Shown piece by piece: positions 10,286-24,933 of a stretch of 64,000 bases of DNA. This stretch comes from Deltaproteobacteria bacterium (GTDB lineage: Bacteria; Desulfobacterota; DSM-4660; Desulfatiglandales; Desulfatiglandaceae), in NCBI GenBank assembly GCA_019307945.1, contig JAFDIS010000004.1, positions 1 to 64,000 of the forward strand. The letters are read 5' to 3'. The notes under the pieces were generated by a model. The model ran no database searches and was not told the origin of the DNA. It saw only the letters and a list, made by a program, of their open reading frames with translations. Every line of letters begins with the position of its first letter. The first letter of the stretch is position 1. A program made the translations under genes and the position numbers.

Positions 10286-11302
10286 TCAGTCCTTCGTGAT
10301 TCCCAGTTTTTCCAGCTTGTAGAAGAGCGTCTTGTAGCTGATCTTCAGCATGCGCGCCGCCTGTCGCTTGTTCCAACCCGTGGCGTCCAGGGCGCGCGTG
10401 ATGACCTTTTTTTCTATGTATTCGATCCCGTTCGCCTTTACCTGCTTGAGGGACCTGGGTCCCACAAGGTCAAGGGAAATCTCCCCTTCGTCACCCTCGG
10501 GCCCGGCCGGACCCTTCTCGAATTCCATGGGCACGGGAAGGCCGTCCCCCGCCATGTTCGCCAACAATTCGTACTTCACCTTTTCCGGATCATCCCCCAC
10601 CAGGAGGCGCAGGATGGTGCTGCTCAATTCCCTCACGTTCCCCGGCCAGTGGTATTTCTGGAAAAAGCGCTTGAGGTCCGTATCCAGCTTGAAGCGGTCC
10701 TGCACCTTCAGCTCCCGCTGGTGCTTCTGTATGAAGTGCTTGAGCAGCAGGGGGATGTCCTGTCTCCGCTCACGCAGCGGAGGGATGTCGATCTTGATGA
10801 TGTTGAGGCGGTAATAAAGGTCCTCTCTGAACCTCCCTTCCTGCTGGTCCTTTTCCAGGTCATGGTTGGTGGCCGCCACCACCCAGGCATTGACCTTCAC
10901 GTCCTCGGTTCCTCCAAGCCGGGTGAAATCGCCGCTCTGGAGCACCTGGAGGAGCTTGGCCTGAAGCACCAGGGGCATGTCTCCGATCTCGTCCAAAAAA
11001 ATCACACCATCCGATGCGATCTCGAACTTCCCAGGCTTGAACTTGACGGCTCCCGTGAAGGCCCCTTTCTCATACCCGAACAGTTCACTCTCCAGGAGGG
11101 TCAAGGGTAATGCGGCGCAGTTGACCTTGACGAATCTCTTGTCGCGGCGGTTCGAGGCATAATGAAGCAGCCGGGCCACCACCTCCTTGCCCGTGCCGGT
11201 CTCGCCGGTGATCAGCACGTTGAACGCCGTGTCCGAGACCATGGTGATCAATTCGCGGATCTTCTGGATGTCAGGGTGGTTGCCCAGGAGCACGTAGTCC
11301 AT
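10286..11302 (-). CDS. Sigma-54 activator lacking a receiver domain
   Basis: This ~338-residue enhancer-binding protein has the AAA+ core almost at its N-terminus: Walker [11 protein letters not shown], the sigma-54 contact loop GAFTGA, Walker [11 protein letters not shown], and a C-terminal Fis-type helix-turn-helix ([20 protein letters not shown]). With no receiver it is probably controlled by partner proteins or its own level. A GTG start at 11404 would add 34 residues that look non-conserved. I prefer the ATG at 11302, which follows a promoter-like element at 11314-11341. It probably activates the adjoining polysaccharide genes at sigma-54 promoters. Confidence 0.87.
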
Positions 11303-11313
11303 AATGTGGTAAA

Positions 11314-11341
11314 TTTTTACACACTGCCCCGGGCCTGTCAA
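11314..11341 (-). promoter_or_regulatory. Candidate sigma-70 promoter for the receiverless activator
   Basis: On the minus strand, TTGACA (11336-11341) and TAAAAA (11314-11319) are separated by 16 bases. Transcription would begin only a few bases before the ATG at 11302, giving an almost leaderless mRNA. The -35 is perfect, the -10 matches at four of six positions. Confidence 0.4.
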
Positions 11342-11483
11342 CGAAAATTCCCCGGCCCGGAAACGGCTGTAATATCTCCTCGTGCCTTCATTTTTCGGGA
11401 TCACGCCCTTTTTTTGACGGGACCCGGCCCCGAATGAGGCCGACCTGCCTTTGTGCAGCCTCTCCCCTGCCCCGGGGATGCGT

Positions 11484-12887
11484 TCACGGCTTCAAATCGA
11501 ATTCAAGGATCCTGTTCAGGAGCGTCTTATAGCTCACCTGCAAGAGTTCGGCGGCCCGTTTCCGGTTCCAGTTGGTCTCCTTGAGAGTCTTGAGGATGGC
11601 CGTCTTTTCCACCTCCGAAACATAGGCCTTGCTGATCATTCTCAAGGAAAAATCCTTCTCCCTGAAAAACTTATTGATCTTCTCGTCGCCCCAGATCAAC
11701 AGGGGCGTCTTGGCCCCGGAAAAACTCCCGGCCGGCTGGCCCGCGATCCGTTCTCCCAGTTCCATCTCCTTGAAAATGGCGTTCCAGTCTCGTATCACGA
11801 TGGCCCTTCGAATGACGTTCTCCAGTTCCCGGACATTGCCGGGCCAGTCATAGGCCTGCAACAGTCCCATGACCCCCTCGGGCACGTCCAGGTTCTCTTT
11901 CCGGTACTCGAAACAGTACTTGTTCATGAAGTAGTGGACCAGCAGGGGGATATCTTCCTTGCGGCGGCGCAAAGGCGGCACCTCTATGTGCACGACGTGC
12001 AGCCTGTAATAAAGATCCCTGCGGAAGAGCCCATCCCTCACCTTGCGTCCCAGGTCGGCGTGGGTGGCCGCCACGACCCTGGTGTCCACCCACGTATCCC
12101 TGGTGCCCCCCAGCCTTGAGAAGGACTTGTCTTCGAGCACCTGGAGAAACTTGACCTGGAGTGAGAGGGACAGATCCCCGATCTCGTCTATAAACAGCGT
12201 GCCCTCGTCGGCCATCTCCAGCCGGCCGGGCTTATTCTTGTGGGCCCCGGTAAAGGCCCCTTTCTGAAATCCGAAGACCTCGCTTTCCAGGAGTTCGTCG
12301 GGCAGGGCGCCGCAGTTAATCTTCACGAGGGGGCCCTTGCATCGCGGAGAATGATAATGAATGGCCCGCGCCACGAGTTCCTTGCCCGTTCCGCTCTCGC
12401 CGGTTACCAGGACGGTGATGTCTTTGGGGGACACCATCCGCACCTTTTTCCGAATGTCCCTAAGCCCTGCGCTCTGGCCGATGATCACGGGGAAATCCGT
12501 CCTAGCCCGGCATTCCTGCCTGTAGGCAAGGGCCCCGCCGATGATCTCCCGCAGGGCATCCTCATCCGCGTCCGGCGGCACGAGATGAATCCCGTCAAAG
12601 GGAAAAAGATTCATGAGGTCGGAGGATGCCTCGTTTTCGCAGATGATCAGGACCGGCATCTCCAGCTCGATGATTTTGAGCTTGTGGAGGCACCGAATAC
12701 CGGCATCCAGCCCCACCCCGGGCCCGAGGATCGCCAGGTCCGGGGACAGGGCCTCCATTTGCTCGATGGGCATGAGAGGGGAGGCATTGCTGCGAAACCG
12801 GTAGCCCAGCCTATCCAGACGCTCCTCAATCCCGGTCAGACGAGCTGGATCCTCATCCAACAACAGGATATTTAGTTTGCTCTCCAT
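11484..12887 (-). CDS. Sigma-54 response regulator with degenerate receiver
   Basis: This 467-residue activator has an N-terminal receiver-like domain ([12 protein letters not shown]), an AAA+ domain ([24 protein letters not shown]) and a Fis-type DNA-binding helix ([20 protein letters not shown]). In ordinary receivers the strand-3 motif carries the phosphoacceptor Asp; here it reads [14 protein letters not shown], with Gly at the expected position. Classical phosphorylation is thus unlikely. It resembles PrsR-type regulators of exosortase loci. The ATG at 12887 has GAGGG six bases upstream; the longer frame from 12938 looks non-conserved. It sits between the hybrid kinase and the second activator. 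Confidence 0.88.
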
Positions 12888-13009
12888 GAGTGCCCTCTTG
12901 GTCCCCCTCCCTCCGGGCCCGGCAGGCCCGGGCATCACCCTGTTGGTCCCGGGACCAGGACTCGATTCTCAAAAGGCCGCCGCCCGGTGGAGGGCGCCTT
13001 TGGGGCCGC

Positions 13010-15439
13010 TCAGGCCGCCAGGACCCTTGAAAGGGTACGGCTCAGCTCCTCCAAGCCGCAAGGCTTTGTCAGGTACCCCTTGATCATGTTACTCACGGTC
13101 TCATCGATCCCGTTGGGACCTGATTCCTCGTACCCCGAGACTATGATGATCCTGGCGTCACGGTCCTCCTTGAGAAGTTCCTTGATACATGCCACCCCGT
13201 CCATTTCGGGCATGTTTCGGTCCATGAGCACCAGGTCCGGGCGCCATTCCGCGTATTTTTTCAGGGCCTCGGTGGGCCGTGCCGCGGCCTGGACATCGTA
13301 GTTGAGGCCCTTTGCGAGACCCACGAGGGCCTCAAGGGAACTGGGCTCATCGTCCACGATAAGGATTTTTTGACCCTTTCCCTGTACCACCTGCTTTTCC
13401 GACTTTTCCCGCTCGTCCTTCCTCTTTTCGGCTAAAGGGAAATAAATCTTGAATACCGTGCCTTTGCCCGGGGTTGAAGAGACCGCGATCCTGCCGCCGT
13501 GCTCGGCCACGATCCCGTGAACCGTGGAAAGCCCCAGACCCGTTCCCTTCCCCACGTCCTTGGCCGAGAAAAAGGGTTCAAAGATCCGCTCCAGGGTTTC
13601 CTGGTCCATGCCGTGTCCCGTATCCGAGACCACGGCCCACACCTGGTTTCCCGTCCTGTCGGCCTGCACCGCCAGTCGTCCCCCTTCCGGCATGGCGTCT
13701 CTCGCATTGGTGAAAAGATTCATGAAGACCTGGCCCAGGAGCGAGCGATTGCCGTTGACGAAAAGTCCCTCCGCCAGCTTCAGCTCCACCTGGATCCGTT
13801 TGTCGAACACCCTTTCTATGATGGTGTAGGTCTCAAGAATCACGTCCTTGAGATCCAGGACCACCGGGTTGAACTCCACGCCCACCTTCGAAAAGTGAAG
13901 CAGGCTGTTGACAAGGCCCACACCCTTGTCCACGGAGTTGTTGATGTTCCTTACGGTCTCCTTGACCTCGGGGTCGTCGCCGTGAATCATGTCCAGGTAT
14001 TCCACGTTGCCCAGGACGGCCTGGAGAATATTCCTGAAGTTGTGGGCCACGCCTCCCGCCAGCCGGCCCAGGGATTCGAGTTTCTGGGATCCCAGGAGCC
14101 TATTCTGGAGTGCGCGCTGTTCCTCCTCCGACTTCTTGACGCCCGTCAGGTCGTTGAAAAGGGTCACGATCTCACCCGAGGGCAGGCGGTAGACGTCGTA
14201 CTCCCTCCAACCGCTGGTCCGTTCATCCTCATAGAGAAAGGCCGGCACGTGTTCGCTTTCGCCGGTGCGCCATACCCGGCGGAACACCTCCGGGAGACCC
14301 ACCCGGCCGTAACCCGGGAAAACCTCCTCAAGTCGCTTTCCGCGCACCTGCCCGCGATCAATGCCCTCCATCTCCTCGGCCGCATAGTTGACATCCGCAA
14401 TGAGAAATTCCTCCGCGTCCCCCCCCACCTCGTAGACGACCACTCCGCTCTTCATGTTGTCAAAGATGGCGCGGAAGCGGGCCTCGCTTTTTCGCAGGCG
14501 CTGCTCGGTCCGATGCAGGGTACGGGTGCGGCTTTCAACGCGCCTTTCCTGGCGGGCATAGAGGAGGGCGTTTTCAATGGCGATGGCCGCCGGGCTCGCC
14601 AGTCCCATGAGCAACTGGAGGTCTTCCTTACGGAAGCCGTGGGGCGCGTGCAGGGAATCCACATAGATGGCCCCACGAATCTTGGAACGGCTGACGAGGG
14701 GAACACACATGACGGATCGGATCTTGAGGGCCTTGATGCTGTCGGACAGATCCGCCTCCAGCTCCGAACTGGTATCCGCCATGGTCACGGGCTTTCCTTC
14801 CTTGATCACCCGGTTCACGATGGTCCGGCTGTAATCGATACTCGTGTGCTTGCCGTCCTGCCTGGATCGGGCGATGGTCTCGGACAACCTCCCCGTGTCT
14901 CCGTCCAGCAGCAGGACCGCGCCCCTGTCGATGCGCTTGAGGCAGTCGAAGAGATACTCCATGACCTTTTCGAGAATATCGTTGATGTCCAGCGACTGGG
15001 TCAAGGCATTGGATACCTTGTACATGAGCTGCAGGTTCTTCAGGTTGGTGAGCGGCCTGTCACGGTAGGGACCCGAGCCGAGATAGTCCCTGAAGCCCTT
15101 GGGGAACTTCACTGCGTGCCGGACCAGTGTGCCCCCCACGCTGAATTCCCGATCCAGGCACATCAGGGTGCCGCCAACTGCAATGGGGTGGCCCTCTTGC
15201 ACCTCCACCTCCTCGCCCGGGCTCAGGAGCCGACCGTCCAGGTAGGTCCCGTTGGTGCTCTTGAGGTCCTGGATGAAGAAGCGTTCTTCCCGCCGGACGA
15301 TCCTCATGTGACGGGCGGAAATGGAAGGGTCTTTGAGCCTGATGTCGTTCTGTTCCGACCGCCCGAGATACTGGGTGTCCTTTTTCAGTTCAAATGACTC
15401 CCCTTTGTCAGGACCTTCCAGGATGAAAAGTTTGAGCAT
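13010..15439 (-). CDS. FHA-GAF-PAS hybrid histidine kinase with C-terminal receiver
   Basis: This 809-residue soluble sensor has an FHA domain first (YLGRSEQNDIRL, then STNGTYLDG), which in other proteins reads phosphothreonine. A GAF domain follows (about 130-300), then PAS (about 330-440), a histidine-kinase core with H-box GGVAHNFRN, a GHKL ATPase (GTGLGLSTV) and a receiver (VDDEP, LVLMDRNMPEMDG). No membrane helix is visible. I moved the start to the ATG at 15439, which has GGAGG eight bases upstream and begins MLKLFILEGPDKG, the natural FHA start. It may receive input from a Ser/Thr kinase outside the window and signal to the neighbouring sigma-54 regulators or to the lone receiver. Confidence 0.92.
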   Translation of the reverse strand: MLKLFILEGPDKGESFELKKDTQYLGRSEQNDIRLKDPSISARHMRIVRREERFFIQDLKSTNGTYLDGRLLSPGEEVEVQEGHPIAVGGTLMCLDREFSVGGTLVRHAVKFPKGFRDYLGSGPYRDRPLTNLKNLQLMYKVSNALTQSLDINDILEKVMEYLFDCLKRIDRGAVLLLDGDTGRLSETIARSRQDGKHTSIDYSRTIVNRVIKEGKPVTMADTSSELEADLSDSIKALKIRSVMCVPLVSRSKIRGAIYVDSLHAPHGFRKEDLQLLMGLASPAAIAIENALLYARQERRVESRTRTLHRTEQRLRKSEARFRAIFDNMKSGVVVYEVGGDAEEFLIADVNYAAEEMEGIDRGQVRGKRLEEVFPGYGRVGLPEVFRRVWRTGESEHVPAFLYEDERTSGWREYDVYRLPSGEIVTLFNDLTGVKKSEEEQRALQNRLLGSQKLESLGRLAGGVAHNFRNILQAVLGNVEYLDMIHGDDPEVKETVRNINNSVDKGVGLVNSLLHFSKVGVEFNPVVLDLKDVILETYTIIERVFDKRIQVELKLAEGLFVNGNRSLLGQVFMNLFTNARDAMPEGGRLAVQADRTGNQVWAVVSDTGHGMDQETLERIFEPFFSAKDVGKGTGLGLSTVHGIVAEHGGRIAVSSTPGKGTVFKIYFPLAEKRKDEREKSEKQVVQGKGQKILIVDDEPSSLEALVGLAKGLNYDVQAAARPTEALKKYAEWRPDLVLMDRNMPEMDGVACIKELLKEDRDARIIIVSGYEESGPNGIDETVSNMIKGYLTKPCGLEELSRTLSRVLAA

Positions 15440-15530
15440 GGCGAAACCTCCCCGAAACGCTGAACGCCGTGGGTGGAAGGGCTGGGATTTCAGGCTCATG
15501 CCGCGAAGGGCCCCCCGGGGGGCCTTCGGG

Positions 15531-15899
15531 CTAACCCAGGAGCCTTTCGATGTGATCTTTCAGCACCGCCATCTTCACGGGCTTGGCCAGGACCAGGTCT
15601 GCCTTTCTTTCCAGGGCCGCGGCTTCGGGCTCCTTTCCATACCCCGTGATGGCGATGACCGGAATTTCAGGCCTTCTCTCTTTCAGGGCCGTCACCACGC
15701 CCACGCCGCTCACATAGGGCATGACGATATCGGTGATCACCAGATCGTATGCAGCAGAATCCAGGAGTTTCATCCCTTCCATGCCGTCGGCCGCGCTGAT
15801 CACCCCGTAACCCAGGTATTCCAGGTGCTTGATCATCATGGACAGGACGTCCGGATCGTCCTCGATCACGAGGATGGTCTTCCGAGGTTTATCGCTCAT
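15531..15899 (-). CDS. Stand-alone CheY-like receiver
   Basis: This 122-residue single-domain response regulator has the acidic pair in VIEDDP, the phosphoacceptor Asp in DLVITDIVMP, Thr in IAITGYG and Lys in LAKPVK. All catalytic positions are intact, in contrast to the receiver of the sigma-54 regulator at 11484. It may act as a phosphorelay intermediate or allosteric switch for the adjacent hybrid kinase, 91 bases downstream on the same strand. Confidence 0.9.
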   Translation of the reverse strand: MSDKPRKTILVIEDDPDVLSMMIKHLEYLGYGVISAADGMEGMKLLDSAAYDLVITDIVMPYVSGVGVVTALKERRPEIPVIAITGYGKEPEAAALERKADLVLAKPVKMAVLKDHIERLLG

Positions 15900-15995: not shown

Positions 15996-17150
15996 TCACC
16001 GGATGCTTTCCAGGTATGCGAGGTCCTGTTCCTGGGTGTTCTTGGTCCCAATGGCCAGGACTGTGATCCTGCCCCGGGTGTCTTTCTGATAATAGAGCCT
16101 CCCCGAATAGGAGAAATCCACCTCCAGGACGTTCATCTTGCCGCCCTTGCCGAAGACCTTTCTCCTTACGGAAACCAGGCTGTCATCCCGATCGAGGTGC
16201 TGAATAACCTCCTCTGCCTTGAGCTGGAATTCCCCCGTGAGTCCGCTGAAGCCCGTAAGGGCCCTCTCCGTGAAGGTGAGGTTCTTGTAAAGGACCCGGA
16301 AGCGCTTGGCAGCGGCGGCCGCCTGCTTTTGCCTTTTGCGCGGATGTCGCGTTTTCGCCCGCAACCGGTCCAGTTCCTCGCGCAGCCTCAGGGCCTCCTG
16401 CTCAAGCTCCTCCTTGAGATCCTTCTGGCTCTGGAGACCCGTCTCCAATTCTTCCATCTCTTCGAGCAGCGCGTCAACGTCTTTCGAAAGGCCTTCCTTG
16501 TCCTTGCTCAGATGCTCGATCCGCCGGAGATAGCCGTTTTGCTTGGCCTCGATTTCCTTCAACGCCCCCCGGGTCTGATCCAACTGGCCGGAAAGGCGCT
16601 CGATGACGGCCCTGCGGTCAGCTTCGAGGGCCTCGACCCGGCGCATGCCCCTGCGCACGAAGGCCCTGAGGACCAGGGCCGCAGCGAGCAGATAGACCAG
16701 GAGGATTGAATTGGAAATCCAACTGTTGTGTGCGACCTTGAGGTTCAGGGAAACGACCAGCCCCTCGTTGAGCAACCGGTAATTTTCCGTGGCCACAGCC
16801 ATGTAATGGGCCGCGTCAAGGGGGTCGTCTTCTGTTCCGGCGGTTCCTGGCTCCAGCTCCGCCACAGGGTAGAGGATCCGGTTGTCCCCCGTCTTTACAA
16901 GGATCCGGGCCCGCACGCCCAGGCGGTACTTGAGGCTTTCGGACAGATATTTTCCGATATTCCTGTTGATCTCTTCGACCAGGGAATAGCGTCCTTCGTA
17001 AAGGGCTTCCTGATCCTGGACGATGATGCGGTTGAGCCGTTCGGATTCCCGTCGCTGCCAGTAACTCTCCAGACCCTGGATCGTCAGGATGTAGCACAGG
17101 GGGGGCAGAAAGATGCATAGGAACAGTATGCGATAGGGGAACCTGTTCAT
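15996..17150 (-). CDS. Membrane coiled-coil protein with RelE-like C-terminal region
   Basis: I do not recognise this 384-residue protein as a named family. One helix (about 6-24) and a second (about 147-166) bracket a ~120-residue extracytoplasmic region, the layout of a membrane sensor. A long coiled coil follows (about 170-285), then a basic linker with KTRHPRKRQK. The last ~85 residues (VRRKVFGKGGKMNVLEVDFS, then YYQKD, ITVLAIGTKNTQEQD) have the pattern of a ParE/RelE-like fold: two helices, then strands ending in a 'vl.iG.K' motif. I infer this by eye. It could be a signalling output domain rather than a toxin, since no antitoxin gene is adjacent. Confidence 0.6.
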   Translation of the reverse strand: MNRFPYRILFLCIFLPPLCYILTIQGLESYWQRRESERLNRIIVQDQEALYEGRYSLVEEINRNIGKYLSESLKYRLGVRARILVKTGDNRILYPVAELEPGTAGTEDDPLDAAHYMAVATENYRLLNEGLVVSLNLKVAHNSWISNSILLVYLLAAALVLRAFVRRGMRRVEALEADRRAVIERLSGQLDQTRGALKEIEAKQNGYLRRIEHLSKDKEGLSKDVDALLEEMEELETGLQSQKDLKEELEQEALRLREELDRLRAKTRHPRKRQKQAAAAAKRFRVLYKNLTFTERALTGFSGLTGEFQLKAEEVIQHLDRDDSLVSVRRKVFGKGGKMNVLEVDFSYSGRLYYQKDTRGRITVLAIGTKNTQEQDLAYLESIR

Positions 17151-17200
17151 GGCAGCGTGCGGGGCGCCCGCGGGCGGGGGCGCCCGGCATCCTCCCTCCC

Positions 17201-19525
17201 CTAACCCTTGGGTCCGCCTGCCCGAATGGCCTCCAGCGTCTTCCTCGCCTCCCGGGCTCCCTTGAAGGTCTTTGAGAGGCTCAAGGCCTTTTCCAGGGCC
17301 TCCCGGGCCTTATTAGGCTGGTTGTTCTTGAAGTAGGCCATCCCGAGGTGATAGTTGATGACCGGATTATCAGGGCTTTTCTCCAGGCTGTCCCTGAATT
17401 CGGAGATGGCGCTCGGGTATCGTCCCTTGAGGTAATAGACCCAGCCCAGGGTGTCCATCACGCCGGGATTGTCGGGTAGTTGTTCTTTGGCGATCTGGGC
17501 ATAATTCAAGGCCTCGTCTATGTTGAGACCCCGCTCGGCAAGGTTCCATGCCAGGTTGTTGGCCGCGGGACCAAAGTCTTTCTTGACCTCCAGGGCCTTG
17601 CGATAATAGCTCTCGGCCTTTTTCCCGTCTCCCAGGTGGTCATAAATGGCACCCACCGCGAGGTATGAGGCCAGTTGCTTGGGGTTTTTCTTGAGGATCG
17701 CCTCGTGCTGGGCGATGGCCTCCTTATAGCGTTTCTCGCTCACGTAGATCCTGGAAAGGGCCAGGTAGGGGCCCAGGATATTGGGGTTGGTCTGAATGGA
17801 CTTCTCGAACAAGGCCCGGGCCCTGTCTTTGTCTTTCCGGGCCATGTATACCGTACCCTGCAGATATTCAATCCGGGCCAGTGTCAGCGAGTTGTCCTTG
17901 ACCCGCTTCTTCTGTGCCTCGCACAACCGCAGGGCCTGATCCGACTTACCCTCCGCAGTCAGCAAACTCACCAGGAAGGTGAGGGCATCGATCTGTCCCG
18001 GGTTGAGGTCGACGGCCTTTTGAAAGGCCTCCCTCGCCTTTTCCCGGCGCTTCGTCATGTTGTAGAGGAGCCCCAGCTTCACGTATCCCGAGGCCCGATT
18101 GGGAGCCAGCTCCACCACCTTCAGATAGGAGGCCTCCGCCCCTTTCACGTCCCGCTCAAGGAGCCGCAGGCCGCCGTCCAGGGTCAAGGCCTTGATATTA
18201 TTGGGAGCCAGTGCCAGGATCTTGTCCACCTGCTCCCGGGCCCTCTCCTTGTCGCCCTGCCTGATGTACCTTTCCGCAAGGATGAGGCGGGCGTCCACCA
18301 GGCGCGGGTTGAGTTCCACGGCCTTGACCAGATCCTTTTCGGCCAGTTTTCGCTCGCCCTTCCCCAGGAGGGCCAGTGCCTTGAAGTAATGGGCCCGGGC
18401 ATCCCGTGGCCTCTCCCGCACCACCAGATCGAACCGCCTCAGGGCGTCGGCCACGTCCCGTTTCATGAGGGAGAGCCTGCCCTTAAGGAAATTGGCCCTA
18501 ACGTGGCCCTTGTCCTTTGCCAGGACCCGGTCCACGGCCTTTTCCGCCTCCGCAAACTTTCTGAAATCAAAGTGAAGCCGGGCGATGGCCACCTGGATTC
18601 CCGGGTCGTCCTTCTTGATTTCCGCGGCCTTGTTCATGGCGGACAGGGCCTTTTCATAGTTCCGGGCCCTGATGTGGAACCCGGCCAGGTTCATGAGCGG
18701 TCCCACATCGCCCGGCGGGGCCTTTTCAACAGCCTCCATGTACGTCTTTTCCGCAAGTTCGGGTCGCCGGGTGCCTTCATAGAAACGGGCCAGTATGGGC
18801 AGGACCTGGTAGCGGGCCTCGGCCTTTTCCAGCATTTTCTTGAGGAGTTCTTCGGCCTTTCGAACCTCACCCCTGCGGGTATAGATGGTGGCGAGTTCCA
18901 CATAGGGCACACGGGCCTTGGGCTCCAGCGCGAGTGCCTTGAGATAGGACTGTTCGGCCTGGGACAGGTCCCCTTTCAGGAGACTGAGCCTGGCCAGGGA
19001 GAGGTGGCTCTTGAACTGGTCCGGATCCAGGGAAATGGCCTTCTTGAGGGTTTCGATGGCCTCGTCGGTCTTCCTTTCCTGGACCAGGACCCCGGAAAGC
19101 AGCATCAGGGCTTCGATATTTTCAGGGGATTCGGCAAGGATCAGCTCGGCCTTTTTCCGGGCATCAGCGGTCCTTTTGCCCAGGAGAAAGATCTGGCCCA
19201 TTTTCAGATGGGCCTTCAGATTTTCAGGGTTTGCGGAAACCGCCCGCGCAAAGGACTGGAAGGCCTCCCTGCCCTTCTTGACCCGGAGATAGGCCTCCCC
19301 CAGCTCGTAGTAGGCCTCGTCGTTGTGGGGGTTGAGCTGGACGGCGTTCCGGAACTCGATCACCGCCTTTTCGAATTCACCTTTCTGCACGTATTCCCGT
19401 GCCTTGCTAAGGTGTTGGGCCTCCTTTTCCTCTTTGCTCGCACAACCTCCCGTGAAGGCCGCCAGCAAGAGCAATGTAAACGCCGCTGCGAAAACCCCTC
19501 TCCGGGATCGGATCATGTTCTGCAC
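17201..19525 (-). CDS. TPR-repeat lipoprotein, PrsT type
   Basis: This 774-residue protein begins with a lipoprotein signal (LLLLAAFTGGC, Cys near residue 28) and continues with about twenty tetratricopeptide repeats (for example AYYELGEAYLRVKKGREAF). This matches the PEP-CTERM-system TPR lipoproteins that accompany exosortase polysaccharide loci and are thought to scaffold envelope complexes. A GTG start at 19525 is favoured over the ATG three codons later because GAGGAG lies six bases upstream of the GTG. It is the first gene of the minus-strand polysaccharide/regulatory set, so the promoter probably lies in 19526-20115. Confidence 0.88.
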   Translation of the reverse strand: MQNMIRSRRGVFAAAFTLLLLAAFTGGCASKEEKEAQHLSKAREYVQKGEFEKAVIEFRNAVQLNPHNDEAYYELGEAYLRVKKGREAFQSFARAVSANPENLKAHLKMGQIFLLGKRTADARKKAELILAESPENIEALMLLSGVLVQERKTDEAIETLKKAISLDPDQFKSHLSLARLSLLKGDLSQAEQSYLKALALEPKARVPYVELATIYTRRGEVRKAEELLKKMLEKAEARYQVLPILARFYEGTRRPELAEKTYMEAVEKAPPGDVGPLMNLAGFHIRARNYEKALSAMNKAAEIKKDDPGIQVAIARLHFDFRKFAEAEKAVDRVLAKDKGHVRANFLKGRLSLMKRDVADALRRFDLVVRERPRDARAHYFKALALLGKGERKLAEKDLVKAVELNPRLVDARLILAERYIRQGDKERAREQVDKILALAPNNIKALTLDGGLRLLERDVKGAEASYLKVVELAPNRASGYVKLGLLYNMTKRREKAREAFQKAVDLNPGQIDALTFLVSLLTAEGKSDQALRLCEAQKKRVKDNSLTLARIEYLQGTVYMARKDKDRARALFEKSIQTNPNILGPYLALSRIYVSEKRYKEAIAQHEAILKKNPKQLASYLAVGAIYDHLGDGKKAESYYRKALEVKKDFGPAANNLAWNLAERGLNIDEALNYAQIAKEQLPDNPGVMDTLGWVYYLKGRYPSAISEFRDSLEKSPDNPVINYHLGMAYFKNNQPNKAREALEKALSLSKTFKGAREARKTLEAIRAGGPKG

Positions 19526-20115: not shown

Positions 20116-21180
20116 ATGAACGATTCCGTCTCAAAAATCCTCCAGGAACGGCCTTTGGTCTCATCCGCCCCATGCCGGATCGACGCAGGCGGTACGTGGG
20201 ACATCCCTGCCATGGCCCTTCCCCTGGCAGGCGCCGTTCCCACCACCGTGAACCTGGCCATATCCCCGGGAACCGTCGTGCGGCTGGAGGCCTTCGATCC
20301 CGGCTGGGTCTCCATTTCTTCGGAGGGGTTCGTACGAATCGAGACACACCCCGGCCACGAACTGCCGTTCCACGGCCCGTACGGGCTTTTCTTCGCGGCT
20401 GTTTCCCATTTCGGGTTCCACGGCCTCAGGATAGCCATCCGGGCGGGTCTCCCGGTACGATCGGGCCTCGGGGGGTCCAGCACGGCGCTGGTGGCCCTGC
20501 TCCACGCCCTGAGCCGGCTCCGTGCGATCCTGGGAGGAAAGCCCCTGCGCCGGGAAGGCCTTCTCCGACTGGGGTTCCTGCTGGAAGACGCGGTGAGCAA
20601 CGGCCATTGCGGGATGCAGGACCAGGCCGCGGCCGTCTATGGCGGGGTAAACCAGTGGGTCTGGCGCTTCGGCGGCGGTTTATGTCCGTTCAGCAGGAAG
20701 CCGCTGCTGGACGCCCGCGGCCGGGCCGCCCTGTCTGCAAGGATCCTGGTGGCCCACAGCGGGAAAAGCCACGTCTCCTCCCGGACTAACAGGAAATGGA
20801 TCGGCGGGTTTCAGGATGGGACCACCCGAAGGGGCTGGCTCCGGGCCAATGAAATCACCCACAGCCTCGCACGCGCGCTGGAAAAACGGGATTGGGAAGG
20901 GGCTGCAGGATTTCTGCGTGAGGAGATGGCGGTGCGCCGAAAAATTACGCCCGAGGCACTGATCCCCCTCACCCACCGTCTCATCGACCGTGCCGAAAGG
21001 TTGGGATGCGGCGCCAGGTTCGCGGGGGCGGGCGCAGGCGGCGCCGTGTGGGCCCTGGGGGAGAAGGGAAAAATCCGGCGGCTGCGGCAGGCATGGGAGG
21101 AACTCCTTCGTCCCCACAGGGGGGCGGGGATCCTGGATTGCCGGGTGCACGGGCGCGGCGTGCACGCGCCGCGGGGCTGA
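20116..21180 (+). CDS. GHMP-family kinase, probably sugar/heptose kinase
   Basis: This 354-residue cytoplasmic kinase has the GHMP ATP-binding loop RSGLGGSST near residue 115, a substrate-side motif near the N-terminus (APCRIDAGGTWD) and the C-terminal glycine motif GAGAGG near 308. The N-terminal RIDAGG pattern resembles D-glycero-alpha-D-manno-heptose-7-phosphate kinase (HddA) and fucokinase-like enzymes more than mevalonate or homoserine kinases. It would phosphorylate a sugar for LPS, S-layer or exopolysaccharide precursors, fitting the adjacent locus. No strong Shine-Dalgarno site precedes the ATG, so the start is moderately certain. GC content is high throughout. Confidence 0.8.
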   Translation: MNDSVSKILQERPLVSSAPCRIDAGGTWDIPAMALPLAGAVPTTVNLAISPGTVVRLEAFDPGWVSISSEGFVRIETHPGHELPFHGPYGLFFAAVSHFGFHGLRIAIRAGLPVRSGLGGSSTALVALLHALSRLRAILGGKPLRREGLLRLGFLLEDAVSNGHCGMQDQAAAVYGGVNQWVWRFGGGLCPFSRKPLLDARGRAALSARILVAHSGKSHVSSRTNRKWIGGFQDGTTRRGWLRANEITHSLARALEKRDWEGAAGFLREEMAVRRKITPEALIPLTHRLIDRAERLGCGARFAGAGAGGAVWALGEKGKIRRLRQAWEELLRPHRGAGILDCRVHGRGVHAPRG

Positions 21181-22626: not shown

Positions 22627-23799
22627 CTACTTCTTGATCTTCTTTTCGTATTCCCGGTCGATTTCGAGGTCCTCGATGTCGGTCGTCTTCTCTCCCCTGG
22701 CCGCCCTGATGGCGTCGATGGCGCGGCCCACCACGGCCCGCCTGGATGCATAACTCAAGGCCACATCTTCGGTGATCTGCCCCCGGCGGTAGAGGTCTGA
22801 AATGGACTGGTCGAAGGTCATCATGCCGAAGGTCCGGCTTTGCTCGATGATCTCGTAAAAGGTCTTCCCCTCCTCCTCGCCGTGGAGGATGGCGTCCTTG
22901 ACGCGCAGGTTGCTGCCCATGATCTCGAAAGCGGCGATTCTGCCTCCGCCCTTTTTGGGCAGGAGCCTCTGGCAGGCGATCCACCGCAGCGTGTCGGCCA
23001 GCCGTACCCGGACCTGGTTTTCCTCTTCCTGGTCGAACATGCCCACGATCCTGTTTATGGTCTGACCCGCGTCCACCGTATGAAGGGTGCTGAGGACCAG
23101 GTGCCCGGTCTCAGCGGCGGTAAGGCCGATCTCAACGGTCTCACGGTCGCGCATTTCGCCCACCAGAATCACCTTGGGCGCCTGGCGCAGGGCGGCGCGC
23201 AGACCAGTGGCAAAGCTCTCGAAATCGGTTCCCAGTTCCCGCTGGTTGAAAGTGGACCGCTTCTGCGAATGGACATACTCCACCGGATCTTCCAGGGTCA
23301 CCACGTGGACCGACAACCGCTCGTTGATCTCGTTGAGCACGGCGGCCAGGGAGGTGGACTTACCAGTACCCGTCGCACCCGTAACCAGGATGATCCCGTT
23401 CCGCTCCCCGGCCATCTTGAGAAAGGCCTCCGGCAGTCCCAGTTCCTCGACCGTGGGGACCCGGTTGGCCAACTGTCTCATAACGGTGGAAAAATATCCC
23501 TTCTGAGAAAAGATGTTGACTCGGAATCGGGCCTTGCCCGCCAACTGGTAGGAGGCGTCGCAAGAACCTTCCTTCAACAGGGCCTTGGTCAACCTTCGGT
23601 CTCCGTTGATCAGGTTCAACGCGAATACCTCGGCCTGGAAGGGAGTCAGCCTCCGGATGGGGGGGTTGACGGAAACGGGCTTCAACTCTCCGTCCGCCTC
23701 CACCTGGAACGGCTTGTCCACCGTGATGTTGAAGTCCGACACGTTGTCGTAGGACTCGAGCATGGTGGTCAGGATGCTGTCGATCTGCTGCTTTTTCAT
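22627..23799 (-). CDS. Second PilT/PilU-type retraction ATPase
   Basis: This 390-residue hexameric ATPase of the type II/IV secretion family has Walker A VTGATGTGKST, the Asp box VVTLEDPVEYVH, Walker B ILVGEMRD and the His box STLHT. N-terminal and C-terminal regions resemble PilU/PilT2 paralogs more than PilT proper (for example DFNITVDKPFQVEADGEL). It should help retract the type IV pilus or modulate retraction. It lies 51 bases downstream of pilT in the same operon. No assembly ATPase is in this cluster; a PilB-like gene lies at 37140. Confidence 0.92.
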   Translation of the reverse strand: MKKQQIDSILTTMLESYDNVSDFNITVDKPFQVEADGELKPVSVNPPIRRLTPFQAEVFALNLINGDRRLTKALLKEGSCDASYQLAGKARFRVNIFSQKGYFSTVMRQLANRVPTVEELGLPEAFLKMAGERNGIILVTGATGTGKSTSLAAVLNEINERLSVHVVTLEDPVEYVHSQKRSTFNQRELGTDFESFATGLRAALRQAPKVILVGEMRDRETVEIGLTAAETGHLVLSTLHTVDAGQTINRIVGMFDQEEENQVRVRLADTLRWIACQRLLPKKGGGRIAAFEIMGSNLRVKDAILHGEEEGKTFYEIIEQSRTFGMMTFDQSISDLYRRGQITEDVALSYASRRAVVGRAIDAIRAARGEKTTDIEDLEIDREYEKKIKK

Positions 23800-23850
23800 G
23801 ACCCGCCACCTCCCTGTGTGTTTGTGGTGACCGGTTTTCCCCCCGCGCCC

Positions 23851-24933
23851 CTAGACCTCGGTGAAATCTGCGGGCGGGTTTTTCAGAAAAGGGAGAAATT
23901 TGGATTTTTCCACGGCCTTGGTGTAGGCGTCCTCGGCGCTGATGATCTTTTTCTTCAACAGTTCCATGATGGAATCATCCAGGGATTGCATGCCGTATTT
24001 TTTCCCGGTCTGGATCATGGATGGGATCTGGAATGTCTTTCCCTCACGGATGAGGTTCCGCACGCCCGGCGTGGCGATCATGATCTCAAGGGCGGCCACG
24101 CGGCCTCTTCGGTCAATGCGCTTGAACAGGGTCTGACTGATCACGGCGCGGATGCCGTCGGCCAGGGTGTTCCGCACCTGTTCCTGCTGGTTGACCGGAA
24201 ACACCTCGATAACGCGGTCCACGGTCTTGGAGGCGCTCATGGTGTGAAGGGTGCCGAACACCAGGTGACCCGTGGCCGATGCCTCAATGGCCAGGGATAT
24301 GGTCTCGAGGTCCCGCATCTCGCCCACCAGGATGATGTCCGGGTCCTCGCGCAGGGCGCCCCGAAGGGCCGCACTGAATGACCTCGTATGGATACCCACT
24401 TCCCGGTGGTTTACAATGGCCCGTTCGCTCTTGTGCACGAACTCGATGGGATCTTCTATGGTCAGTATGTGGTCCTTCCGGGTGAGGTTGGCTTCGTGGA
24501 CGATGGCCGCCAGCGTCGTGGACTTACCGCTTCCCGTAGGCCCCGTCACCAGGACCAGGCCCCTGGGTAGGGTTGCCAGTTTCTGAATCACCTTGGGGAG
24601 CCCCAACTGCTCGCATGTCATGATCTCGGACGGAATTTCACGGAAGACCGCGGCAACCCCGTTTTTCTGCAGGAAAAAGTTGGCCCGGTACCGGGCAAGT
24701 CCCGGGATTTCATATGCGAAATCCACGTCCCCGGTTTCTTCAAACACCTTGATCTTGTCCTCCGGGGCGATCTCGTAGAGCATGGCCTTCAGGGTATCAT
24801 TGTCCAGCTCCTTGTATTTTACCCGCTCCATGTCCCCGTCGATCCTCAGGACGGGCTGCTGACCTGAGATCAGGTGCAGGTCCGATGCCCCCTGGTCGTT
24901 CATCAGCTTGAAAAATGCATCGATCTGGGCCAT
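23851..24933 (-). CDS. pilT: Type IV pilus retraction ATPase PilT
   Basis: This 360-residue protein matches PilT along its length: DLHLISGQQPVLRIDG at the start, Walker A VTGPTGSGKST, Asp box LTIEDPIEFVH, Walker B ILVGEMRDLET and His box GTLHT. The AIRNLI-like motif appears as GVRNLIREGK. It depolymerises pilin to power twitching, adhesion or DNA uptake. It is the first gene of the operon behind the promoter at 25039-25066. Confidence 0.95.
   Translation of the reverse strand: MAQIDAFFKLMNDQGASDLHLISGQQPVLRIDGDMERVKYKELDNDTLKAMLYEIAPEDKIKVFEETGDVDFAYEIPGLARYRANFFLQKNGVAAVFREIPSEIMTCEQLGLPKVIQKLATLPRGLVLVTGPTGSGKSTTLAAIVHEANLTRKDHILTIEDPIEFVHKSERAIVNHREVGIHTRSFSAALRGALREDPDIILVGEMRDLETISLAIEASATGHLVFGTLHTMSASKTVDRVIEVFPVNQQEQVRNTLADGIRAVISQTLFKRIDRRGRVAALEIMIATPGVRNLIREGKTFQIPSMIQTGKKYGMQSLDDSIMELLKKKIISAEDAYTKAVEKSKFLPFLKNPPADFTEV

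Follow-up and report, generated by a model that had tools for sequence, protein, structure and literature searches.

The gene at positions 15996..17150 (-) of the window, the 64,000-nucleotide stretch of DNA analysed here, encodes a predicted membrane protein of 384 amino acids with two transmembrane (TM) helices and a C-terminal domain for which structure prediction provides strong evidence of a RelE-type fold. Domains of this fold are best known as free toxins that are kept in check by antitoxins. We tentatively propose that this protein is an envelope sensor of XrtA-type exopolysaccharide loci with an output acting on RNA or the ribosome, a reading to which we give not quite an even chance.

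The best 19-residue hydrophobic windows of the protein are found at residues 147-165 and 8-26, and two hydrophobic segments were counted in each of 69 aligned sequences (window protein included), in agreement with the initial annotation, which had drawn two membrane helices around an outer region of about 120 residues. Based on hydropathy and charge, in the case of the first helix over the 69 sequences, TM helix 1 was assigned to residues 8-27 (17070..17129 (-)) and TM helix 2 to residues 147-166 (16653..16712 (-)). The positive-inside rule is the established basis for placing charged ends in the cytoplasm, and the charges over the 69 sequences predict a cytoplasmic location for both the N-terminus and the C-terminal part of the protein; residues 166-185, directly following TM helix 2, contain seven Lys and Arg residues.

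In the model, the predicted periplasmic region between the TM helices (residues 28-146, 16713..17069 (-)) adopts an α/β structure. Searching Pfam with an alignment of this region from 47 of the 69 sequences (A5) listed families that each matched a single one of the 47 members and never the window protein, and the best match to PDB sequences had E = 0.35. The fold search with the whole-protein model barely probed this part, for which we propose neither a known nor a new fold. As the outer region is without a recognised family, the label 'sensor' rests on the architecture of the protein.

The outer region is followed in the whole-protein model by helices comprising residues 144-218, 225-268, and 270-287, so that the long helical section (residues 167-268, 16347..16652 (-)) has a modelled turn near residues 219-224. 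The long coiled coil proposed initially is thus modelled as helices with a turn, perhaps forming an antiparallel hairpin and not a straight stalk. Length variants of the section sit at residues 216, 224, and 269-270. The basic linker that had been noticed in the sequence is located at residues 263-281 (16308..16364 (-)) and has a net charge of +7 in the window protein, with a mean of +3.5 over the 69 sequences. Matches of the full protein to SMC, Rad50, and kinetochore proteins were rejected as coiled-coil chance matches, and its PADLOC matches were discounted, being located mainly on the helical stretch, with none for the C-terminal domain alone.

The RelE-fold domain comprises residues 289-384 (15999..16286 (-)) with the order β-α-α-β4-α. 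An AlphaFold2 model of residues 276-384, built on the alignment of 69 sequences, has a mean pLDDT of 93.7 and shows a helix, a strand, two helices, four strands, and a helix. Comparing it with the PDB by Foldseek resulted in eight matches at E ≤ 1e-3 (lowest 2.4e-4), namely YafQ, RelJK, YoeB (two entries), RelE (three entries), and one pneumococcal toxin-antitoxin complex. Using VIA-align, the best chain was 6n90_B, an Agrobacterium toxin titled YoeB/ParE (Z 10.1, 81 residues, 2.3 Å), with RelJK and YoeB being nearly equal to the top Z and 47 chains reaching Z 8. The whole-protein model led to the same Foldseek entries with weaker scores (none at E ≤ 1e-3, best 5.9e-3), and its VIA-align ranks 1-22 were helical matches, RelE-type entries appearing from rank 23 (Z 10.5). 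The modelled domain can thus be superposed on RelE, YoeB, and YafQ like a member of the RelE/ParE superfamily (BECR fold). Structure prediction and fold search, suggested in the initial annotation as the way to reveal another fold or a lack of RelE matches, gave neither, and the suspected arrangement, a toxin-fold module forming the cytoplasmic end of a receptor-like membrane protein beside a polysaccharide locus, is borne out.

A RelE/ParE-like pattern at the C-terminus had first been noticed from the sequence alone, and it exceeds chance likeness in profile searches. NCBIfam TIGR02683 matches 46 of the 69 C-terminal domains at E ≤ 1 (best 3e-4) and PHROG 3445, annotated 'toxin', matches 52 (best 8e-4), both independently of the motif filter mentioned below, and Pfam Gp49 matches 10/69. 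For the window protein itself the profile matches are weak: TIGR02683 gave E = 0.0037 and 17.6 bits, far below the curated cut-off of 62.85 bits required for membership, and Gp49 gave 13.2 bits with a cut-off of 23.9. A hidden Markov model (HMM) of 16 standalone toxins scored above 10 bits on 59 of the 69 C-terminal domains; in the controls, the same was true for 1 of 1380 shuffled sequences (1267 reported) and for none of 69 reversed ones (47 reported). These toxins (A4) are 16 of 30 loci from related genomes that were picked with a motif filter, and because the filter was based on the same motif the HMM test leans towards it. Aligning the domain profile with the 16 toxins by hhalign gave 92% and E = 5e-7 in a single profile-profile comparison. 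Together, the searches point weakly but consistently to a sequence kinship with TIGR02683 toxins beyond chance. Neither the full protein nor the C-terminal profile had a credible RelE match among the sequences of solved structures; antibody chains, coiled coils, and ribosomal protein L20, which did appear, were dismissed as not credible.

The alignment was based on a search of one genome per species across GTDB, in which 101 relatives were confirmed and the best 80 loci kept. As the search patterns included GTKN[TS]Qx[QK]D, besides a stretch near residues 142-150, the constancy of the GTKN motif in the 69 sequences is partly selected. Five of the 80 loci (L048, L054, L085, L094, and L107) were dropped before clustering, removal of near-duplicates at 90% reduced 76 rows to 71, including the window protein, and L035 and L037 were removed as incomplete. 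The reading frame is broken in L054 (728-1955), near where the conserved strands begin, and in L085 (455-1569), by sequencing error or decay.

The 68 relatives in the final alignment share 27-55% identity with the window protein. Y288, E313, R330, E343, F346, G350, R351, Y353, G368, T369, K370, Q373, and D376 are unchanged in 69/69 sequences, and residue 331 is a Lys in all but one, which has an Arg. Among the longer stretches, conservation is highest in the C-terminal domain, which has a mean column identity of 57% versus 44% for the whole protein, with residues 1-20 being comparable. The succession of TM helix, outer region, TM helix, helices, basic linker, and C-terminal RelE-fold domain is conserved in the family. 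Residues of the conserved core (343-376, 16023..16124 (-)) were the same in 20/20 members of a set (A1) that had been collected by a whole-protein search and not by motif.

Next to the fold, the residues of the putative active site bear on the function of the domain. R351, Y353, G368, K370, Q373, and D376 align with residues kept in the standalone toxins in both an hhalign and an HMMER alignment. Counted over all 30 loci without motif filter and with gaps set aside, the toxins have Arg in 28/28, Tyr in 28/29, and Gly in 27/27 at the positions of R351, Y353, and G368, and Lys in 27/27, Gln in 26/27, and Asp in 26/26 at those of K370, Q373, and D376. According to passages of PMC9098466, alanine substitution of R77 or K95 inhibited the toxicity of Mycobacterium tuberculosis HigB, the effect of Q98A was mild, K99 was also needed for toxicity, and R77 and K95 of ribosome-bound HigB correspond to R61 and R81 of RelE. 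Judging from the motif spacing, R77, K95, and Q98 would be equivalent to R351, K370, and Q373. On the basis of alignment to the standalone toxins and motif spacing to HigB, the active-site Arg (R61/R77) and Arg/Lys (R81/K95) of ribosome-dependent RNase toxins would be represented by R351 and K370 in all 69 sequences, and RNase activity of the C-terminal domain is plausible.

Of the toxin active site, Arg351, Lys370, and Gln373 are kept; the basic residue corresponding to R68 of HigB and K54 of RelE is missing in 69/69 sequences. Position 345 is never Lys or Arg, being L, I, V, E, D, T, A, Q, N, H, or P, and the R68/K54 place aligned without a gap is Glu343 itself. Both alignments disagree here, as hhalign pairs Glu343 with a toxin Glu, opening a two-residue gap, and HMMER, ungapped, pairs it with a toxin Arg. 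In the standalone toxins the R68/K54 position is basic in 26/29. The place of HigB K99 (position 374) has no basic residue in any of the 69 sequences and is basic in just 3 of the 16 A4 toxins; K58 and N73 of HigB had no confident placement on the family alignment. Our guess is that the basic pair R330-K331 (16158..16163 (-)), located on the neighbouring, first strand of the sheet, replaces the lost R68-type residue.

The domain can be compared with HigB toxins of the TIGR02683/Gp49 type, with which it shares the fold, as far as the model goes, and the residues Arg, Tyr, Gly, Lys, Gln, and Asp in like order and spacing. The net charge of the window domain is +5, that of the 16 standalone toxins ranges from -1 to +16. 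Unlike HigB-type toxins, the domain is fused to an anchor of two TM helices, the family has the R330-K331 pair and lacks the R68/K54-type residue, and it has no family-wide antitoxin gene. The last point was concluded from a search for short ORFs of 30-150 amino acids within 900 bases of the gene, which yielded 1037 ORFs that were grouped by similarity. Thirty-four groups occur in three or more loci, and the sole group found in more than six loci and not overlapped by longer ORFs is a CheY-like gene. Free-standing groups are restricted to at most five loci; among six members tested, two turned out to be ribosomal protein S18, and none of the remaining four had a credible Pfam match. No small antitoxin-like gene common to the family is thus present within 900 bases, and the gene does not have the surroundings of a type II module. 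A lineage-limited or unlinked antitoxin partner is possible.

The window is, on the basis of profile matches, an XrtA/PEP-CTERM-type exopolysaccharide locus. TIGR02917, TIGR03007 (chain-length), and TIGR03013 (glycosyltransferase) exceed their cut-offs, as does TIGR03016 (outer-membrane) with a match to part of the profile only, and TIGR03015 (ATPase), TIGR03018 (tyrosine autokinase), and TIGR03027 (export) stay below theirs, yet cover nearly the whole profile. The gene directly upstream encodes PrsT, the XrtA/PEP-CTERM TPR protein (17201..19525 (-), 382.6 bits with TIGR02917, cut-off 312.2). Downstream follow, all in the direction of the gene, a single-domain, CheY-like response regulator (15531..15899 (-), PF00072), a hybrid histidine kinase with FHA, GAF, and PAS domains (13010..15499 (-)), and a sigma-54-dependent regulator (11484..12938 (-)), beyond which lies a second sigma-54 activator (10286-11404 (-)). 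This set of kinase, CheY-like protein, and two sigma-54 activators (10286-15899) was not seen in the examined DNA of many more distant loci. On the other side, two adjoining genes for PilT/PilU-family ATPases (22627-24933 (-)) are located beyond a divergent gene (20116-21180 (+)), an order that is repeated in locus L062. A GC-rich stem-loop between prsT and the gene (17151-17200) is no more stable than shuffled sequences (z -0.19), and scans for promoters and terminators provided no basis for operon borders.

PrsK, PrsR, and PrsT are named by Haft et al. 2006 (PMC1569441) for PEP-CTERM/exosortase systems, a like locus type in which PrsT is the component that neighbours the window gene upstream, and the word 'toxin' occurs 0 times in that text. 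In Aquincola, prsT is required for floc formation (PMC9850573).

A PrsT-like gene is found upstream of the gene, in the same direction and 0-615 bases away, in 56/77 loci. PrsT-like here means E < 1e-15 to the PrsT of the window, so that some may be other TPR proteins, and the count leaves out three of the 80 loci near an edge. L059 and L100 have less than 1000 bases upstream. Of the 21 loci that lack it upstream, 11 contain a PrsT-like gene at another place and 10 do not contain one. Five genomes have two copies of the gene among the 80 loci, and PrsT-like genes are upstream in 10/10 of these. A scan of 148 related genomes with TIGR02917 was set aside, as it scored five candidates per genome out of many TPR proteins and overlooked the PrsT of the window itself. 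A TIGR03015-like ATPase gene lies directly downstream in 18/80 loci, with the example in L101 being confirmed by HMM, and a relative of the CheY-like gene is near the gene in 15/80.

Matches to the protein at E ≤ 1e-3 were obtained in 28 of the 148 related genomes, 24 of them at E ≤ 1e-19; in the source genome the gene itself is the sole strong match, two others having E above 0.2. The exosortase of this genome is encoded on another contig (C182, PF09721 E = 1.6e-69). Exosortase was strongly matched in 13 of 24 genomes with the protein and in 7 of 61 without it, the 85 genomes being drawn from the same family and order (odds ratio 9.1, Fisher p = 9e-5, not corrected for relatedness), and 11 of the 24, several of which are incomplete, have no exosortase match at E ≤ 1e-5. 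The polysaccharide locus noted initially is of the XrtA/PEP-CTERM kind, but its genome carries the exosortase elsewhere. Six genomes of one related family (G057, G067, G069, G081, G083, and G084) have the gene, in G057 as a fragment only, and no exosortase match at E ≤ 1e-5, so that the link between the gene and exosortase is not a strict one.

By the titles of their records, 74 of the 80 loci belong to Deltaproteobacteria, Desulfo-named groups, or Smithella, five to plain Proteobacteria or Pseudomonadota, and one, L048, to a Woesearchaeota archaeon. The copy in L048 is closely related to the gene and has PrsT-like and CheY-like neighbours, and the archaeal label of L048 is probably due to binning contamination. 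Desulfospira joergensenii DSM 10085 and Desulfonema magnum 4be13, both cultured, are among the carriers. The C-terminal profile was found in 10 of 395 genomes from the phylum; the open frame containing it was never shorter than 373 residues, so that these genomes yielded no example of the subfamily as a separate, free-standing domain. The viral contigs, plasmids, and phages searched contained no relative.

The proposed envelope sensor would be an inner-membrane signalling protein whose outer region reads a periplasmic state, candidate signals including PrsT, the polysaccharide under assembly, and the machinery that exports it. The helices would relay the signal to the cytoplasmic RelE-fold domain, which would act on RNA, most likely on mRNA in the ribosomal A-site like RelE and HigB, thereby restraining the translation of exopolysaccharide or surface proteins, or translation more widely. 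Since no antitoxin gene is common to the family, the protein would have its own means of control, with the membrane tether and the neighbouring helices taking the part that an antitoxin plays for a free toxin. Cutting of RNA by the domain appears a little more likely than mere binding of RNA or the ribosome, because Arg351, Lys370, and Gln373 are unchanged. A narrower version, which we think rather unlikely to hold in full, is a one-component transmembrane receptor with a ribosome-dependent mRNA interferase as output: a signal from the periplasm or from polysaccharide assembly would cause mRNA cleavage on ribosomes near the membrane and would involve neither a phosphorelay nor a second messenger, a transcription factor, or an antitoxin. 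With such an architecture, a signal from outside might act on RNA or the ribosome directly. A sensor ahead of a RelE-type output is known from Cami1 (PDB 8phj and 8phb), a CARF-RelE ribonuclease that, by its entry title, was captured on the ribosome with cA4. Residues 265-363 of its 384 match the domain at Z 8.7 (89 residues, 2.8 Å); Cami1 is switched by a nucleotide signal, whereas the window protein has the architecture of a membrane receptor.

The RelE-fold domain might, however, be a non-catalytic adaptor that has kept the fold and the groove for binding RNA or protein and has lost the RNase chemistry, and that keeps ribosomes, a transcript, or a cytoplasmic partner at the membrane, such a partner being for instance a response regulator or the complex for polysaccharide synthesis. 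We think this could well be right, with the balance leaning against it. The loss of the R68/K54-type residue throughout the family speaks for it, as do the missing linked antitoxin and the position of the gene beside exopolysaccharide genes and its absence from plasmid, phage, and viral collections, but the other pocket residues are unchanged in 69/69 sequences, which is more than a scaffold should need, and R330-K331 could substitute for the lost residue. A RelE-type domain on a membrane anchor may alternatively be a defence toxin, foreign DNA or envelope damage freeing the domain so that translation stops. A published precedent is ToxM, which, as described in sections of Gerdes 2025 (PMC11980606), begins with its RelE-type domain, continues with a TM region, ends in an outer domain, and is linked to the antitoxin ToxR; it is the only membrane RelE-type toxin found in the portions of open-licence PMC literature covered. 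Both proteins combine a RelE (BECR) fold with membrane anchoring and an extracytoplasmic domain, but the window protein is reversed in order, has two TM helices, and is not of the ToxM type; its family has no shared ToxR-like or other antitoxin-like neighbour, its domain has no PADLOC match, and its gene is located in exopolysaccharide loci, with the upstream PrsT-like genes of the two-copy genomes underlining this tie. We therefore regard a defence role as improbable. Even less probable, and in our view very much so, is that the domain is a ParE-like module that binds gyrase and does not act on RNA. The fold is shared, with Z values of up to 8.3 for ParE chains, and the title of the best entry, 6n90, includes ParE, but the other leading entries are YoeB, RelE, and YafQ, with entries within 1 Z unit being tied, and R351, K370, and Q373 are unchanged, whereas ParE toxins are without RNase catalytic residues according to the same sections of Gerdes 2025 (PMC11980606).

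If the protein is indeed an envelope sensor acting on RNA or the ribosome, it would be an example of the RelE fold working as a normal output of signalling within a membrane receptor, and it would point to a post-transcriptional control of the production of exopolysaccharide and surface proteins. Such a layer was not found for XrtA/PEP-CTERM systems in the parts of the open-licence PMC literature covered, nor did titles and abstract openings in that literature contain a description of a membrane RelE-fold family. In 5/80 loci (L061, L063, L065, L085, and L107) the genes for ribosomal proteins S6, S18, and L9 are located directly downstream of the gene, which is at most a slight hint towards the ribosome, as the five loci may be one lineage. 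L061 also has genes for a DUF2232 membrane protein and a DnaB-type helicase downstream.
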